Of a stretch of DNA of 64,000 nucleotides, positions 50,979-58,283 are shown in pieces. The position numbers were made by a program, and so were the translations under genes. How positions within the stretch are numbered: the stretch's first letter is position 1; each line of letters opens with the position of its first letter. The notes under the pieces were generated by a model, which searched no databases, was not told the DNA's origin, and saw only the letters and a program-made list of their open reading frames with translations. The stretch is from Thermoflexibacter ruber. GTDB lineage: Bacteria; Bacteroidota; Bacteroidia; Cytophagales; Thermoflexibacteraceae. Location: the NCBI RefSeq assembly GCF_900113045.1, contig NZ_FONY01000004.1, positions 62,001 to 126,000 on the forward strand. The letters run 5' to 3'.

Positions 50979-51578
50979 TTAGCTTGCCATACGCATCTGT
51001 TCCGCAGTATATTCGCTTTCATTAATGCGTTTGCGAAGGCTAATCAGTGCATATCTCATTCTCCCTAAGGCAGTATTGATACTTACTCCAGTGGTATCAG
51101 CAATTTCTTGGAAACTCATGTGCATAAAATGACGCATCATCAATACTTGCTTTTGCGATTGAGGAAGGTCGTAAATCATAGATTTAAGTTGGGAGTGCGT
51201 TTCTTTTCTAATCTTAGAAGATTCTGCTGAGTCCTCAGAGAAAGTCATCGTATTGGAAATTTTCGTTTTCTCATCTACTCTTACTTTCACAAATCTCTTT
51301 TGTTTTCTAAAATGGTCTATGGCTAAATTATGAGCGATTCGAGTAAGCCAAGGGAGGAATTTGCCTTCTTCGTTGTACTTCCCTGCTTTGATTGTATCTA
51401 CGGCTTTGATGAGTGCTTCTTGCAGGAGGTCTTCGGCTTCTTCTCTGTCTTTTACAATGTTTTGAATAGAAACCAGCAAGCGAGTTTTGTAGCGTTGTAC
51501 TAATGTAGCAAATGCTCCCTCGTTCCCGTTTTTGTAGAGATTAATCAGTTCAGTGTCGTTAAATTCTAACTTTCTCAT
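50979..51578 (-). CDS. ECF-type RNA polymerase sigma factor with multi-promoter leader
   Basis: A 199-aa ECF sigma factor. Region 2 (about 20-90) has DREEAEDLLQEALIKAVDTI and GKFLPWLTRIAHNLAIDHFRK. A 35-residue linker follows, then region 4 (about 130-185) with LPQSQKQVLMMRHFMHMSF and the helix ISINTALGRMRYAL-like. No anti-sigma gene follows; only a 32-aa membrane frame is downstream. Upstream are three near-identical GTGACTT-N13-CGTCTAAAT elements that look like ECF promoters facing this gene, so autoregulation is likely. Confidence 0.9.
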   Translation of the reverse strand: MRKLEFNDTELINLYKNGNEGAFATLVQRYKTRLLVSIQNIVKDREEAEDLLQEALIKAVDTIKAGKYNEEGKFLPWLTRIAHNLAIDHFRKQKRFVKVRVDEKTKISNTMTFSEDSAESSKIRKETHSQLKSMIYDLPQSQKQVLMMRHFMHMSFQEIADTTGVSINTALGRMRYALISLRKRINESEYTAEQMRMAS

Positions 51579-51717
51579 TGCTTTAAAATTTTAGGTCTTG
51601 AAACATTTTTGAAATTAGGCATCATCAAGGATAGCTAAATTTCGGTTAAGTCATTAAATCAGTTCTACTTGCAAAGGGGTAAGTTAGCCAATTAGTTCTA
51701 TTTTGCTTTCTTTTGAC

Positions 51718-51746
51718 ATTTAGACGAGAGTATTTCAAAAAGTCAC
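51718..51746 (-). promoter_or_regulatory. ECF-type promoter 1 of the sigma gene
   Basis: Read on the minus strand: GTGACTT (complement of 51740-51746), 13 nt, CGTCTAAAT (complement of 51718-51726). An ECF -35/-10 pair is the simplest reading. It predicts a leader of about 130 nt. Confidence 0.65.
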
Positions 51747-51807
51747 TTAATTTTTCTCATTTTTTTAGTGTATCTTTAAAACACTCTCGTTTTTTTCACT
51801 TTTCAAC

Positions 51808-51836
51808 ATTTAGACGTAAAGTCAGAAGGAAGTCAC
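51808..51836 (-). promoter_or_regulatory. ECF-type promoter 2 of the sigma gene
   Basis: A second copy with the same two blocks: GTGACTT (complement of 51830-51836), 13 nt, CGTCTAAAT (complement of 51808-51816), 90 bp upstream of copy 1. The spacer sequence is unlike copy 1, so conservation is limited to the two boxes. Confidence 0.65.
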
Positions 51837-51915
51837 ATCTTTTTGCTAAAAATTTTTAATATGCTTTAAGGTTGATTGCTTTAACTGCTTTTGTATCACT
51901 TTTAAACTTTCTAAT

Positions 51916-51944
51916 ATTTAGACGTAGCTCTAAGAAAAAGTCAC
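51916..51944 (-). promoter_or_regulatory. ECF-type promoter 3 of the sigma gene
   Basis: A third copy: GTGACTT (complement of 51938-51944), 13 nt, CGTCTAAAT (complement of 51916-51924), 108 bp upstream of copy 2. The rest of 51579-52040 is non-coding and T-rich. Confidence 0.62.
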
Positions 51945-51980
51945 AGATTTTTTTTGATTTTTTTATTATTCTGCAAAACA

Positions 51981-52015
51981 GTAAAAAGCCTGTACTTATA
52001 AAAAGTACAGGCTTT
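51981..52015 (-). terminator. Intrinsic terminator of the GldK-like gene
   Basis: AAAGCCTGTACTT (51985-51997) pairs perfectly with AAGTACAGGCTTT (52003-52015) around ATAAA; on the minus strand five Ts follow. It separates the GldK-like transcript from the sigma promoters. Confidence 0.85.
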
Positions 52016-52040: not shown

Positions 52041-53165
52041 TTAAAACTCAAATCCAGAAGAACGTCCTAAATAAGTCATTGCACAACGGAAACCGATATA
52101 AGAAGTAGCAGAATCTTGATGCTCGAAAGTCCTTGTGCCTGTTTCTATCAAGAAAGCTACATCTTTCCAAGAACCACCTCTTATCAGCTTCAACGGTTGA
52201 TTTCCGTCATAATAAGTAGGGTTCAAATCCCACACCAAAGGAACGCTTGCGGGATTAAAAGCATCTTCACACCACTCAGCCACGTTACCTGCCATATCGT
52301 ATAAACCGTAATCATTCGCATAATAAGAGGCTACAGGAGCGGTATAGGAGAAACCGTCGTCATAGTAATTTCCTCTGCCCGGCTTGAAGTTAGCTAAGGC
52401 ACAACCTTTTGCATTTCTTACATAAGGGCTACCCCAAGGGTATTTTGCCATGTCACGACCGCCTCTTGCGGCGTATTCCCACTCAGCTTCAGAAGGTAAG
52501 CGGAAGTTGGGCATGGGGAATTTACCATCATCTGTTCTTACTTGATTCATGTACTTAGTTCTCCATTCGCAGAAAAGCATTGCTGCTTTCCAAGTAACCC
52601 CTACCACAGGATAATCGTCATAGGCAGGGTGCGAATAGTAGTACTGAGCCATAGGGTCTCCCATGTGGTGAGTAAAGTCGTTAATCCACACTAAGGTATC
52701 AGGGTATAATTCGTCTGTAATACCTTGCTGGTCAACTATTTCAGGAAGGGCGGTGTTTTTATTGTATCTAATAGCAAAGATAGAGCTATCACCACCAATA
52801 GGCAAGAAATTGCTTACACCGTCAGAAGCACCGTCATTGCCTTGAATAAATTGTCTATACTCATTATTAGTAATCTCAGTGTCGTCCATGTAGAAACCAC
52901 TAATAGTAATTTGCTTGTTCATAGCAATTTTAGAGGACGCTACATCTTGGTCTGCTTGTCCCATGTGAAATGTGCCGGGTGGGATAGAAACCATACCATA
53001 AGGTAGTTCTTGCTTCCAGCCTTCGCGATTCAAGACCCCAATCAGTTCTCCATCTCCTTTTTTATTCTTTCCCCCAAAAATACAGGCTTGTGAGAGTAGT
53101 GCTAATGTAAGAATCTGTAACAAAAAACTCGCTTTTCGCAGATTCCATAATTTCATTTGAATCAT
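52041..53165 (-). CDS. gldK: GldK-like SUMF1-domain lipoprotein
   Basis: A 374-aa predicted lipoprotein (signal peptide with LLSQAC) carrying a formylglycine-generating-enzyme-like (SUMF1) domain that in the GldK/PorK and GldJ proteins has a structural rather than catalytic role. Strong GldK features are LPYGMVSIPPGTFHMG, FYMDDTEITNNEYRQFI, LPSEAEWEYAARGG, YDMAGNVAEWCEDAF and the GFRCAMTYLG end. GldK with GldN forms periplasmic rings of the T9SS under the outer membrane. Unusually, gldL, gldM and gldN do not follow; the gene is alone and closed by a terminator. It may be a paralogue of the main gldK. The start could also be M4. Confidence 0.68.
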   Translation of the reverse strand: MIQMKLWNLRKASFLLQILTLALLSQACIFGGKNKKGDGELIGVLNREGWKQELPYGMVSIPPGTFHMGQADQDVASSKIAMNKQITISGFYMDDTEITNNEYRQFIQGNDGASDGVSNFLPIGGDSSIFAIRYNKNTALPEIVDQQGITDELYPDTLVWINDFTHHMGDPMAQYYYSHPAYDDYPVVGVTWKAAMLFCEWRTKYMNQVRTDDGKFPMPNFRLPSEAEWEYAARGGRDMAKYPWGSPYVRNAKGCALANFKPGRGNYYDDGFSYTAPVASYYANDYGLYDMAGNVAEWCEDAFNPASVPLVWDLNPTYYDGNQPLKLIRGGSWKDVAFLIETGTRTFEHQDSATSYIGFRCAMTYLGRSSGFEF

Positions 53166-54746: not shown

Positions 54747-57700
54747 GTGAAAAAGTATAGCATTATTTTATTTATCCTACTATCTATATGTGCATTTGTG
54801 CAAGAAGCTACCGCACAAGCCTGTACTACGCCACGCTGTCAAGATTCTTTGGCATTAGTGAATTTATATAATAGAACCAGAGGTGCTACTTGGATGGGCT
54901 TAGCCAATGTTCCTTGGAATCTTTCTCAACCTATGACACAGTGGGGTGGTGTAACGCTTACAGCAGGTAGAGTTACCAGCCTCAATTTATCAGGACTCCG
55001 GTTGAATGGCACTTTGTCAGATTCTATTGGCAACTTAACAGAACTCACTGTTTTAAATCTATCCAATAATTCTCTGCGAGGTGCAGTCCCCAATGGGATA
55101 ACCAGACTAACCAAGTTAGTTACGCTAAATATTAGTAAAAATCAGTTTACCTCTCTTCCAGACTTGTCAGGTTTGACTTCCTTAGGCTCTCTCATCGTCA
55201 ATAACAATCAATTAGGTTTTGGAAGTTTAGAGCCTAATATAGGGAAGTTTTCTACTTTTACATATCTGCCTGATGGCATGGAAAGAGATACCTTAGGAAC
55301 ATCGGTGCGGATAGGGAATAGCACCACTAAGGATAGCGTAATTACTATAGATGAGGGAGATGCTTTTTCTTATACAATAGTCGTAAGTGGCTCTAACAAC
55401 TTATATCAATGGTTTAGAAATGGCACAGCACTGAGTTCTCCTTCGCCAGAAAGTAGGCTGGAACTTCCTGATGCTACTAAGAATACTCAAGAAGGGCGAT
55501 ATTTATTACAAATTACGAATACAAGAGTTCCCGGACTTACCTTTTATCGGAAACTTACCATTATTATCAACCCTTGTCGGATTGTGGGGAGTAGGATAGA
55601 CCGCGACCAAAGCATTTGTGAGGGCGAACCTTTCCCTGTTTTGCAAGGAACAGTTCCCACAGGGCAGAAAGGGCGAACACTTACCTATCAGTGGCAAAGA
55701 AGCATAGACCAAAGAAATTGGACAAATATCGGCATTGGACAAAACCTTACTATTGGTTCTCTACCTGATACAGTAACTTATTTTAGAAGGATTGCTCGGG
55801 ACGGCAGGTGTATTCCAGATACAAGTAACATAGTTATCATTAAATACTTTAGAAAATTAGCCAATAATGTGATTGGCTCTGACCAAGTAATATGTTTGGG
55901 AGATACAGCCAGAGAACTGAGAAGTCTAAGACAAGTAACAGGTGGCGATGGGCAGTACAATTATCAGTGGCAGTACTCTACTAACAGACGGGAGTGGACT
56001 GATGCTGACGGTTCGGAAAATTTTAAACCTTTTGACGTTTTTGTTACTACTTATTTCAGAAGAATAGTCAGCGACCAAACTTGTTTTGTCGATACAAGTA
56101 AGATTGTTACCGTCAAAGTGTTACAACCTTTTGGAGATAATATCATCGGTCGCGACCAAACAATTTGTCCTAACGGTAGGATTAATTTCCTTGGCGATAC
56201 AGTAGGCATTACTCAAAAAGATACTATTAACTTCAAGTTTCAGTGGCAGGCATCTTTAGACCGAAGAGCATGGGTCAGAGCAGACACTATTAATAAAGCA
56301 GATACGATGCTGAGGTTCTATCCTGAACGAATTATTACCAGACCTACTTACTTCCGTAGAATTGTTTACAACCAGTGCCAAAGAGATACAAGTAATACAG
56401 TATTGATAGACATTTTCAGACCCATTGCTAACAATAGAATCCAAGTGAACACGCCTGTGTATTGTGATGGGGATACAACCAAGGTGGAACTCACAGGAAA
56501 TGTGCCTATTGGAGGAGGAGGTCAGTACAGATATACTTGGCAGAGTTCTTTGGACAGGAGAAATTGGAACAATCGCGGTGATTCTCTGCGGCTTACTTTA
56601 GAAAGCATTACAGATACTACTTATTTCCGTAGAATAGTCAGAAGTTTATGCTATGCAGATACGAGCAATGTAGTAGTAGTAGCCAGAGCCTTTGACTTTG
56701 GGGAAAATAGAATCACCAGTCCAAGCCAGTTGAACTGTAATAATCTGGCACCAGATTCTCTAACAGCAACCCGCCCACAGGGTAAAGGTTTCTTTGAATA
56801 TATTTGGCAAACTTCTCCTGACTCTATCAACTGGGCAAGGGTAGATACCTTAGGCAATGGCATAGGCTACAGACCTCCTGCTCAAATGCCTTTAGGAAAA
56901 ATTTATATTCGTAGAGTCATAGACAATGGTTGTAAGCTAAGCGTAAGTAATGTCATTAGTATCACAACCGTAGAAGCTATTGATAACAACCTCATTAGAG
57001 GAAACCAATCCGTATGCGAAGGACAAGAGATTAGAGAAATAACAGGTACGATTCCTTTGGGCGGTGGAGGTGGCTATCGATATCGCTGGCAAGTATCTAC
57101 AGACTCTATTAATTGGGCTTTAGCTGATACTTCGCAAAATTTTAAACCTCAGGGAATTGTCAGAACTTCTTATTACAGAAGAATAGTTACTGCAAGACAG
57201 TGTGGGATAGACACAAGCAACGTAGTAACGGTACGTTTTGTAAGTAAAGTAAGAAATAACATCATCAGAGATAACCAAGAGATTTGCTTAGGAGCCAGAG
57301 CAGATAGCTTGTCGGGGTCGTTGCCTACTGGCGGGGACAGTACTTATACCTATATTTGGCAACAAAGTCTAACCGATAGTACTTGGAAAACAGTAGCTAA
57401 TACCAGAAATTATACCCCTGACTTGCTAAGAAGTACTAAATTTAGGCGCATAGTACAGTCGGCTTGTTTCTCTGACACAAGTAATGTAGTACTGATAGCG
57501 GTAAATGAGCGACCTACCAATAATAGAATACTTGGTACAGGGCTGATAGTTTGCCGAGGAGTACAGCCCGATACACTCAAAGGAACTACTCCGGTGGACA
57601 ATGTTGGTGTTTTCCAATACCAATGGCAGGTTTCCAAAGACCGTAGGACTTGGGTCAATATTCCAAGAGCTGTTGGCAAAGACCTTGCTCCGCCTATTCC

Positions 57701-58283
57701 AGACTCGACAAGCTACTATCGCCGCATTGCAAGTAATAAATGTTTTAGTGATACCAGCTTATCCGTACCTATTCGCTTATTAGAACTGCCCAAAGTTGAT
57801 GCAGGCAAAGATACCTCTGTAACTATAGGCTTTGGAGTGCGTCTATTAGCCACAGGTGCAAGTGCTTATATATGGACACCTAAGGAAGGTTTGGACAGAG
57901 ATTCTACCGCCAGTCCTATAGCCAGCCCAAGGGTAACTACAAGGTATATAGTTACAGGCATAGATGCGGCAGGCTGTAGAAATGTAGATACAGTCTTGGT
58001 GAGAGTAATTAACGAAGCTGATATAGATGTGGTAGATGTGATTACGCCCAATGGAGATGGGCTGAATGACGTCTTATATGTCAAAAACATAGAGTTATAT
58101 CCTGAAAATACGATTATCATTTTTAATCGCTGGGGCAAAGAAATTTACCAAAAGAAAAATTATCAAAATGATTGGGATGGGACTATTAATGGAGAACTTC
58201 TCCCAACAGGGGTGTATTTCTATGTCATTAATTTTGGACTGACCAGCCGACCGAAAAAAGGGTCATTCTCTATCATTAATTGA
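54747..58283 (+). CDS. Large T9SS-secreted repeat protein with type B C-terminal domain
   Basis: An 1178-aa cell-surface or secreted protein. Signal peptide (1-24), leucine-rich repeat region (about 55-175: LNLSGLRLNGTLSDSIGNL and following units), then eight repeats of about 90 residues. Most repeats contain an xQxIC start, a QWQxSxDxxxW core and a YFRRIV end with paired cysteines, as in Ig-like domains. A PKD-like segment (about 1020-1085) precedes the gliding-motility C-terminal (CHU_C/type B) sorting domain: DVITPNGDGLNDVLYV, IIFNRWGKEIYQ, GELLPTGVYFYVI. Translation starts at GTG. The SprF-like gene downstream is its likely export partner, as for SprB/SprF. Adhesion is inferred. Confidence 0.9.
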   Translation: MKKYSIILFILLSICAFVQEATAQACTTPRCQDSLALVNLYNRTRGATWMGLANVPWNLSQPMTQWGGVTLTAGRVTSLNLSGLRLNGTLSDSIGNLTELTVLNLSNNSLRGAVPNGITRLTKLVTLNISKNQFTSLPDLSGLTSLGSLIVNNNQLGFGSLEPNIGKFSTFTYLPDGMERDTLGTSVRIGNSTTKDSVITIDEGDAFSYTIVVSGSNNLYQWFRNGTALSSPSPESRLELPDATKNTQEGRYLLQITNTRVPGLTFYRKLTIIINPCRIVGSRIDRDQSICEGEPFPVLQGTVPTGQKGRTLTYQWQRSIDQRNWTNIGIGQNLTIGSLPDTVTYFRRIARDGRCIPDTSNIVIIKYFRKLANNVIGSDQVICLGDTARELRSLRQVTGGDGQYNYQWQYSTNRREWTDADGSENFKPFDVFVTTYFRRIVSDQTCFVDTSKIVTVKVLQPFGDNIIGRDQTICPNGRINFLGDTVGITQKDTINFKFQWQASLDRRAWVRADTINKADTMLRFYPERIITRPTYFRRIVYNQCQRDTSNTVLIDIFRPIANNRIQVNTPVYCDGDTTKVELTGNVPIGGGGQYRYTWQSSLDRRNWNNRGDSLRLTLESITDTTYFRRIVRSLCYADTSNVVVVARAFDFGENRITSPSQLNCNNLAPDSLTATRPQGKGFFEYIWQTSPDSINWARVDTLGNGIGYRPPAQMPLGKIYIRRVIDNGCKLSVSNVISITTVEAIDNNLIRGNQSVCEGQEIREITGTIPLGGGGGYRYRWQVSTDSINWALADTSQNFKPQGIVRTSYYRRIVTARQCGIDTSNVVTVRFVSKVRNNIIRDNQEICLGARADSLSGSLPTGGDSTYTYIWQQSLTDSTWKTVANTRNYTPDLLRSTKFRRIVQSACFSDTSNVVLIAVNERPTNNRILGTGLIVCRGVQPDTLKGTTPVDNVGVFQYQWQVSKDRRTWVNIPRAVGKDLAPPIPDSTSYYRRIASNKCFSDTSLSVPIRLLELPKVDAGKDTSVTIGFGVRLLATGASAYIWTPKEGLDRDSTASPIASPRVTTRYIVTGIDAAGCRNVDTVLVRVINEADIDVVDVITPNGDGLNDVLYVKNIELYPENTIIIFNRWGKEIYQKKNYQNDWDGTINGELLPTGVYFYVINFGLTSRPKKGSFSIIN

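Follow-up and report, generated by a model that had tools for sequence, protein, structure and literature searches.

Bacteroidota carry many ECF sigma factors, and to our knowledge few of their promoter specificities are known. In ECF cascades one ECF controls the gene of another sigma factor, and ECFs with related preferences can overlap. The classical ECF promoter, as the available portion of a review presents it, has a -35 box with AAC and a -10 box with CGT, and autoregulated promoters of this bipartite kind stand before an ECF sigma gene (PMC8103513). In the same portion the enterobacterial rpoE control region places several promoters before one ECF sigma gene, with an RpoS-dependent P4 and an autoregulated P6, which are of different types (PMC8103513). 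Native tandem promoters of E. coli are closely spaced in front of one gene, and the distance between their starts matters for interference; the excerpt available to us does not describe them as copies of one alternative-sigma promoter (PMC8830795). Finally, in Porphyromonas the ECF factor SigP belongs to a PorXY-SigP control of the T9SS, again as far as the available part of the source goes (PMC4800418).

The window analysed here, a stretch of 64,000 nucleotides from Thermoflexibacter ruber, holds three copies of GTGACTT-N13-CGTCTAAAT of equal spacing, at start-to-start intervals of 90 and 108 nt, which face an ECF sigma gene starting at 51578; they had been described in an initial annotation made from the sequence, and an exact search confirms them (Table 1). 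On the minus strand GTGACTT-N13-CGTCTAA occurs exactly at 51720-51746, 51810-51836 and 51918-51944, with AT directly 3' of each copy. Like the autoregulated ECF promoters, the array is bipartite, has CGT in its -10 box (CGTCTAA) and stands just before a sigma gene, with a spacer of N13 and about 20 bp between the box starts. It differs from them in that its -35 box, GTGACTT, has GAC rather than AAC, that three copies stand in series, that there is no anti-sigma gene next door and that the evidence leans towards another ECF as the reader. Compared with the rpoE region the three promoters are copies of one type, and their distances of 90 and 108 exceed the 35-bp occlusion range given in the available excerpt for E. 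coli tandem promoters (PMC8830795). The logic that we propose is that of ECF cascades, in which sigma drives sigma, here inferred from comparative genomics and running through what would be a triplicated private promoter. Like SigP, the window sigma is a Bacteroidota ECF, and its gene adjoins gldK/porK; that adjacency is absent in a congener, and the motif proposed for SigP does not obviously resemble the array boxes in the part of the source available (PMC4800418). Tandem promoters and multi-promoter ECF genes are already known, on the available parts of two sources (PMC8830795, PMC8103513). Among the matches listed we found no description of a single ECF promoter repeated three times and kept for one gene, and the array itself was not recognised among the matches listed in literature on tandem or multiple ECF promoters, on Bacteroidota and Cytophagales ECF motifs and on the box letters. 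As a concrete example of an alternative-sigma promoter present in triplicate and dedicated to a single gene, the locus lends itself to testing.

Table 1. Features of the sigma locus, in window coordinates, and the gene of the candidate upstream sigma factor, by genome and contig
Feature	Position	Strand	Remarks
Distal promoter P1	51916..51944	-	GTGACTT-N13-CGTCTAAAT; predicted start about 51911
Middle promoter P2	51808..51836	-	GTGACTT-N13-CGTCTAAAT; predicted start about 51803
Proximal promoter P3	51718..51746	-	GTGACTT-N13-CGTCTAAAT; predicted start about 51713
A-rich tract directly 5' of P1 -35 box	51945..51964	-	18/20 A or T; possible UP element
A/T-rich tract directly 5' of P2 -35 box	51837..51856	-	17/20 A or T; putative function only
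A-rich tract directly 5' of P3 -35 box	51747..51766	-	18/20 A or T; putative function only
ECF sigma factor gene	50979..51578	-	199 aa; sigma-70 regions 2 and 4; relatives across the order
Hairpin A, RNA stem around P2	51800..51852	-	can form only in RNAs started at P1 or upstream of it
Hairpin B 5' arm, between P2 and P3	51773..51790	-	18 nt
Hairpin B 3' arm	51724..51741	-	18 nt; covers P3 spacer and overlaps boxes at both ends
Terminator-like hairpin after gldK, between gldK and array	51985..52015	-	
gldK/porK (T9SS ring lipoprotein), upstream neighbour	52041..53165	-	adjacency not common to congener G001
ECF-2-like sigma gene of the window's genome	G000:C47:110292-110831		

None of 100 shuffles of the window contained any match to the exact motif, and in the whole 5.5-Mb genome (G000 in what follows, where G and L numbers denote genomes and loci, and G001 and G002 are the congeners) a search with spacers N12-14 returned three exact matches, all in the array, with none for the reversed control. 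The window sigma has Pfam Sigma70_r2 and Sigma70_r4 domains above cut-off and no other domain types, as an ECF (group IV) factor does, and its nearest solved chains are sigma factors, including sigma-H and SigW. That no anti-sigma gene adjoins it was borne out: the neighbours are gldK/porK upstream and a convergent bioA downstream, and the window sigma thus has no co-encoded anti-sigma factor, a classical mark of ECFs that has since been relaxed. The terminator-like hairpin after gldK makes the array look like a separate control region. A scan of the region for sigma-70-type promoters found 8 against 7.5 expected, and the vegetative box TAnnTTTG occurs once in G002 and not in the scanned stretches of G000 and G001. 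By eye, an upstream ORF of 16 codons (ATGATGCCT..., 51575-51625, minus strand) has a stop that overlaps the sigma start codon in G000, and G001 and G002 do not show it in this form. Elsewhere in the window, 54747-58283 on the plus strand encodes a large protein with a T9SS type B sorting domain.

Within the genus the boxes are kept. Three exact copies precede the orthologous sigma gene in G002, at -347, -212 and -100, and a single exact copy precedes it in G001, at -117; the G001 genome is 62% complete, and the stretch upstream of its sigma gene is present, with a gene other than gldK upstream. The proposed check of whether orthologues carry the same boxes thus gives a positive answer in both congeners and a negative one outside the genus, where none of 78 orthologue loci has GTGAC-N15/16-CGTC in the 250 nt before the gene. 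In the alignment of G000 and G002, box positions are identical in 48/48 cases, spacers in 19/39 and other aligned positions in 171/256, the box identity being partly a matter of selection because the G002 copies came from an exact search; the stronger fact is that this search found three of three in G002. By their flanks the distal, middle and proximal copies of the two genomes match one to one. All seven sites of the genus read GTGACTT at -35, as sites found with that pattern must, and all seven have 16-18 A or T in the 20 letters upstream. A link of the array to gldK and the T9SS was considered and rejected, since the adjacency is not conserved: G001 differs, and the G002 contig ends before the neighbour. 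The window sigma does not, in consequence, show the conserved linkage to T9SS genes of a SigP-type regulator.

Do these boxes mark promoters? Across the order (390 genomes) there are 21 exact occurrences of the motif, of which 7 belong to the window's genus and 14 lie elsewhere. The reversed pattern occurs 12 times in the same genomes, so that the raw number outside the genus is near chance and what differs is position. For 9 of the 14 sites an ORF of 100 aa or more starts 14-77 nt downstream on the same strand, against 0 of the 12 controls (Fisher p = 7e-4), which without exception lie inside ORFs. The remaining five sites comprise two inside opposite-strand genes and three without such an ORF within 150 nt. 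On sequence grounds, then, position and the CGT of the -10 box fit an ECF promoter, and the boxes together with the promoter-like placement elsewhere support the earlier description of the array as ECF-type promoters in series before an ECF sigma gene. From their predicted starts the three would together transcribe the window sigma with leaders of about 333, 225 and 135 nt.

Which sigma factor, then, reads the array? The initial annotation took the motif to be the window sigma's own and hence a key to its regulon. A genome scan for further sites was run, and in none of G000, G001 and G002 do they rise above the reversed control. Allowing up to 3 mismatches among 16 fixed letters gives 34 sites in G000 and 73 for the reversed pattern; with up to 2 mismatches in 14 letters G000, G001 and G002 have 17, 9 and 10 sites, exact ones included, against 39, 31 and 56; and relaxing the -10 box to give GTGACTT-N13/14-CGTC adds nothing to the seven known sites, the controls being 3, 1 and 2. 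When 23 mismatched sites were read in context (a set without 6 further two-mismatch sites of G000), two lay within 150 nt before a gene, namely mscL of G000 and one ORF of G001. The G000 mscL gene has a box pair with 1 mismatch 81 nt upstream; it was rejected as a second target because neither G001 nor G002 has such a site before mscL. A one-mismatch form, GTTACTT-N13-CGTCTAA, is also conserved between two species belonging to a different genus within the window's family (G006:C16:41266-41292 and G010:C6:40401-40427), where by eye it points away from the nearest gene starts.

Autoregulation, in which the encoded sigma would read the three promoters of its own gene and so close a positive feedback loop at three points, has several arguments in its favour. 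In the three congeners the exact motif stands only before the window sigma gene, about 55% of ECFs with predicted regulons are autoregulated according to the available part of the review (PMC8103513), and the absence of an adjoining anti-sigma gene makes control through synthesis plausible. Against this, region 4.2 of the window sigma is nearly invariant across 30 aligned orthologues (30 loci, drawn from 57 matching relatives and G000), yet the motif is missing in front of the gene at all 78 loci outside the genus, and where it is found in family f19 it goes with another ECF family. Moreover, since the genus offers no other consensus target above control, a sigma under autoregulation would have only itself as a strong target, and its visible regulon would be itself, which argues for another reader, with the proviso that real targets can carry weaker boxes. 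A sigma with another sigma as its only strong target would make functional sense; one with itself alone would not. We regard autoregulation as the less likely reading, and these comparisons do not support the array motif as the window sigma's own recognition motif.

The other family in question we label ECF-2, a name of our own for an ECF family distinct from the window sigma. Three of the exact sites outside the genus lie between an ECF-2 gene and a divergent gene pair, which at the one locus checked with Pfam (L193) encodes a C39-like peptidase and a RimK-like ATP-grasp protein. A search of the 78 genomes of family f19 at E up to 1e-30 gave 23 ECF-2 loci in 19 genomes, and at 12 of the 23 GTGAC-N15/16-CGTC lies in the 250 nt before ECF-2, compared with 0 of the 78 window-sigma orthologues outside the genus (a control set from which L075 and L076, of the window's genus, were left out), whose whole flanks, 480 kb, hold one such site. 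This looser pattern was chosen after some f19 loci, including that of G371, had been viewed; without the two loci reached via the motif the count is 10/21, and without G371 as well it is 9/20. The sites cluster by closeness to ECF-2, being present at 11 of the 13 loci with E below 1e-36 and at 1 of the 10 weaker matches (E above 1e-35), three more of these ten loci having a site elsewhere in the locus. At L218, L219 and L228 the site faces the ECF-2 gene itself. The motif of the array is the same as that beside the f19 ECF-2 genes, as is expected of a target promoter of the ECF-2 family, and the 12 of 23 loci provide a Cytophagales ECF family with a promoter motif, GTGACTT-N13/14-CGTC. We also observed that ECF-2 genes with this motif in front (L193-L197, L207-L219) often have it facing a divergent C39-peptidase-like gene.

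An ECF-2 relative is present in all three genomes of the genus, with 75-79% mutual identity and 34-42% identity to five f19 proteins. The recognition helix reads ISESAVKMRLKRAKEKV in G000 and differs from this at one or two positions in G001 and G002; it is close to that of two f19 ECF-2 proteins, LSESAVKMRLKRAKEKI or -KL; the helix of the window sigma reads VSINTALGRMRYALISL. The helix does not discriminate, however, because similar ones occur in ECF-2 relatives that have no site (L227, L211 and four f10 proteins). In a tree, computed without L217 and L193-L195 as repeats of L213, L212 and L209, the genus ECF-2 falls inside the wider ECF-2 clade and far from the window sigma; its nearest neighbour is L227, which has no site, and that grouping is weak (81/84). 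A close motif match was not found in front of the genus ECF-2 genes themselves (L198, L199, L204), nor is there a GTGAC-CGTC site beside the four f10 ECF-2 loci, where the best match has 11 of 14 letters (L202); in two of the four f10 genomes, G325 and G354, an exact site precedes a gene elsewhere. Several ECF-2 relatives have mechanosensitive channel genes nearby: a gene with the MS-channel TM-helix domain at L199 and L202 and mscL at L200, by Pfam, and others by look at L198, L204, L201 and L203.

Weighing the f19 association and the helix evidence together with the genus and f10 ECF-2 loci that lack sites, we give a probability of about one half to a cascade in which ECF-2 drives the window sigma through a private triple promoter, and autoregulation comes second. 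The reader in the window's genus would then most likely be not the encoded sigma but the ECF-2-like sigma, and the locus would serve specifically to pass the signal of one ECF sigma on to a second. If the promoters are additive, as we suppose, triplication would raise output and let the locus respond more sensitively when the upstream sigma is scarce. Should the cascade be true, it would be a warning against equating the promoter before a sigma gene with that sigma's own motif. A third ECF sigma, or several with overlapping specificity, could also read the array: the genome has 21-22 ECF-like matches, ECFs with related preferences can overlap and no site lies near the genus ECF-2 gene. No other specific ECF is tied to the motif in our data, however, and we consider this reading quite unlikely.

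Two conserved RNA stems lie within the array. Hairpin A has folding z-scores of -3.5 in G000 and -3.7 in G002, and among its nine outer pairs the two genomes show one double compensatory change and no broken pair. Hairpin B can form in transcripts from P1 and P2. It has 18 pairs in G000 and in G002, with z-scores of -6.4 and -4.6, and 0 of 200 shuffles was as stable; between the two genomes two pairs are changed on both sides and four on one side, none of the 18 is broken, and a simple simulation puts the chance of zero breaks at 3.5e-5. In 60 plain letter shuffles the longest stem of the G000 stretch averaged 11 pairs and reached 18 at least once, and the maximum for G002 was 16. The length of hairpin B is therefore no proof by itself, and the case rests on the z-scores and the conservation. 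The sense strand is the more stable in all four folds, by a small margin in G002, and no comparable stem was found in G001, which has one promoter. The spacers had been called unrelated, which holds for the comparison of one with another; the proximal spacer, however, is one arm of the 18-bp stem, whose partner lies between P2 and P3. That the repeats are transcription-factor binding sites, or mainly a structural RNA leader element, rather than promoters is very improbable: the two covarying hairpins do enclose or overlap the repeats, but the motif is bipartite and asymmetric, with its boxes always 13 nt apart and CGTC at -10, single sites stand 14-77 nt before unrelated genes in other genera, and G001 has one site with no such stem.

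What might the hairpins do under the cascade reading? Transcripts from P1 and P2 would carry them, and they could set mRNA stability or translation according to the promoter of origin, a role that we infer. Given the covarying stems, it becomes worth asking whether the RNA provides a second readout of which promoter was used. In a fuller version, which we think unlikely, a second ECF would fire the three private promoters, upstream-started transcripts would fold the next promoter into a conserved hairpin, and the stability or translation of the sigma mRNA would encode the promoter used, giving a graded or thresholded output, an invention of the genus or part of it. The gene that would carry such a device is, in many genera beyond this family, under the control of a different leader element.

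This other element, approximately AATATGRNATARACCTCTACGTTAACTAAA, lies just before the sigma start, and a loose form of it is matched at 70 of the 105 loci from outside the genus (five genus loci were left out of this count, and some loci are repeats). It is mostly single-copy and found in many genera outside the window's family (many of L007-L033 and L077-L154). A stricter AATATGRNATARACCTCTACGTTAACTAAA pattern with 1 mismatch allowed matches in 138 of 390 genomes, once each in 137, against 7 hits for the reversed control; among 14 pattern-positive genomes with a sigma position, all except G000 and G021 (12) have the match just upstream of the sigma. A k-mer count was made without L004-L006, L016 and L025. 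The element does not precede the sigma gene in any of the three genus genomes, and other genera of the window's family (L009-L011, L021, L024, L025, L028) have neither it nor the triple array. For this reason the array looks like a derived feature of the window's genus, which may have arisen after the element was lost or changed in the family. RNAalifold found no structure (energy 0) in 27 leaders of the AATATGRNATARACCTCTACGTTAACTAAA type, and Rfam at gathering scores recovered only a tRNA in the window and nothing in five orthologue loci. The geometry of the element would also fit an ECF promoter. A putative mini-ORF of the form ATG-NNN-stop occurs in 49 of 51 leaders having ATG and in 0 of 19 that have TATC instead, mostly from one clade.

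A few further observations concern the sigma orthologues. In the last 250 nt before the sigma gene, L009-L011 and L021 show by eye repeated CGAAAA-like boxes, some about 20 nt apart, unlike either the triple array or the AATATGRNATARACCTCTACGTTAACTAAA element. Weak sigma matches only (E 5.6e-9 to 4.3e-17), and so no close orthologue, were found in G004, G005 and G009 of the window's family. Among 59 relatives just two lack any match to the sigma protein, namely G033 and G048 (family f21; genomes of 1.1-1.2 Mb), and G058 has two equally scoring orthologues, at G058:C1:4470417-4470983 and G058:C1:7066427-7066993.
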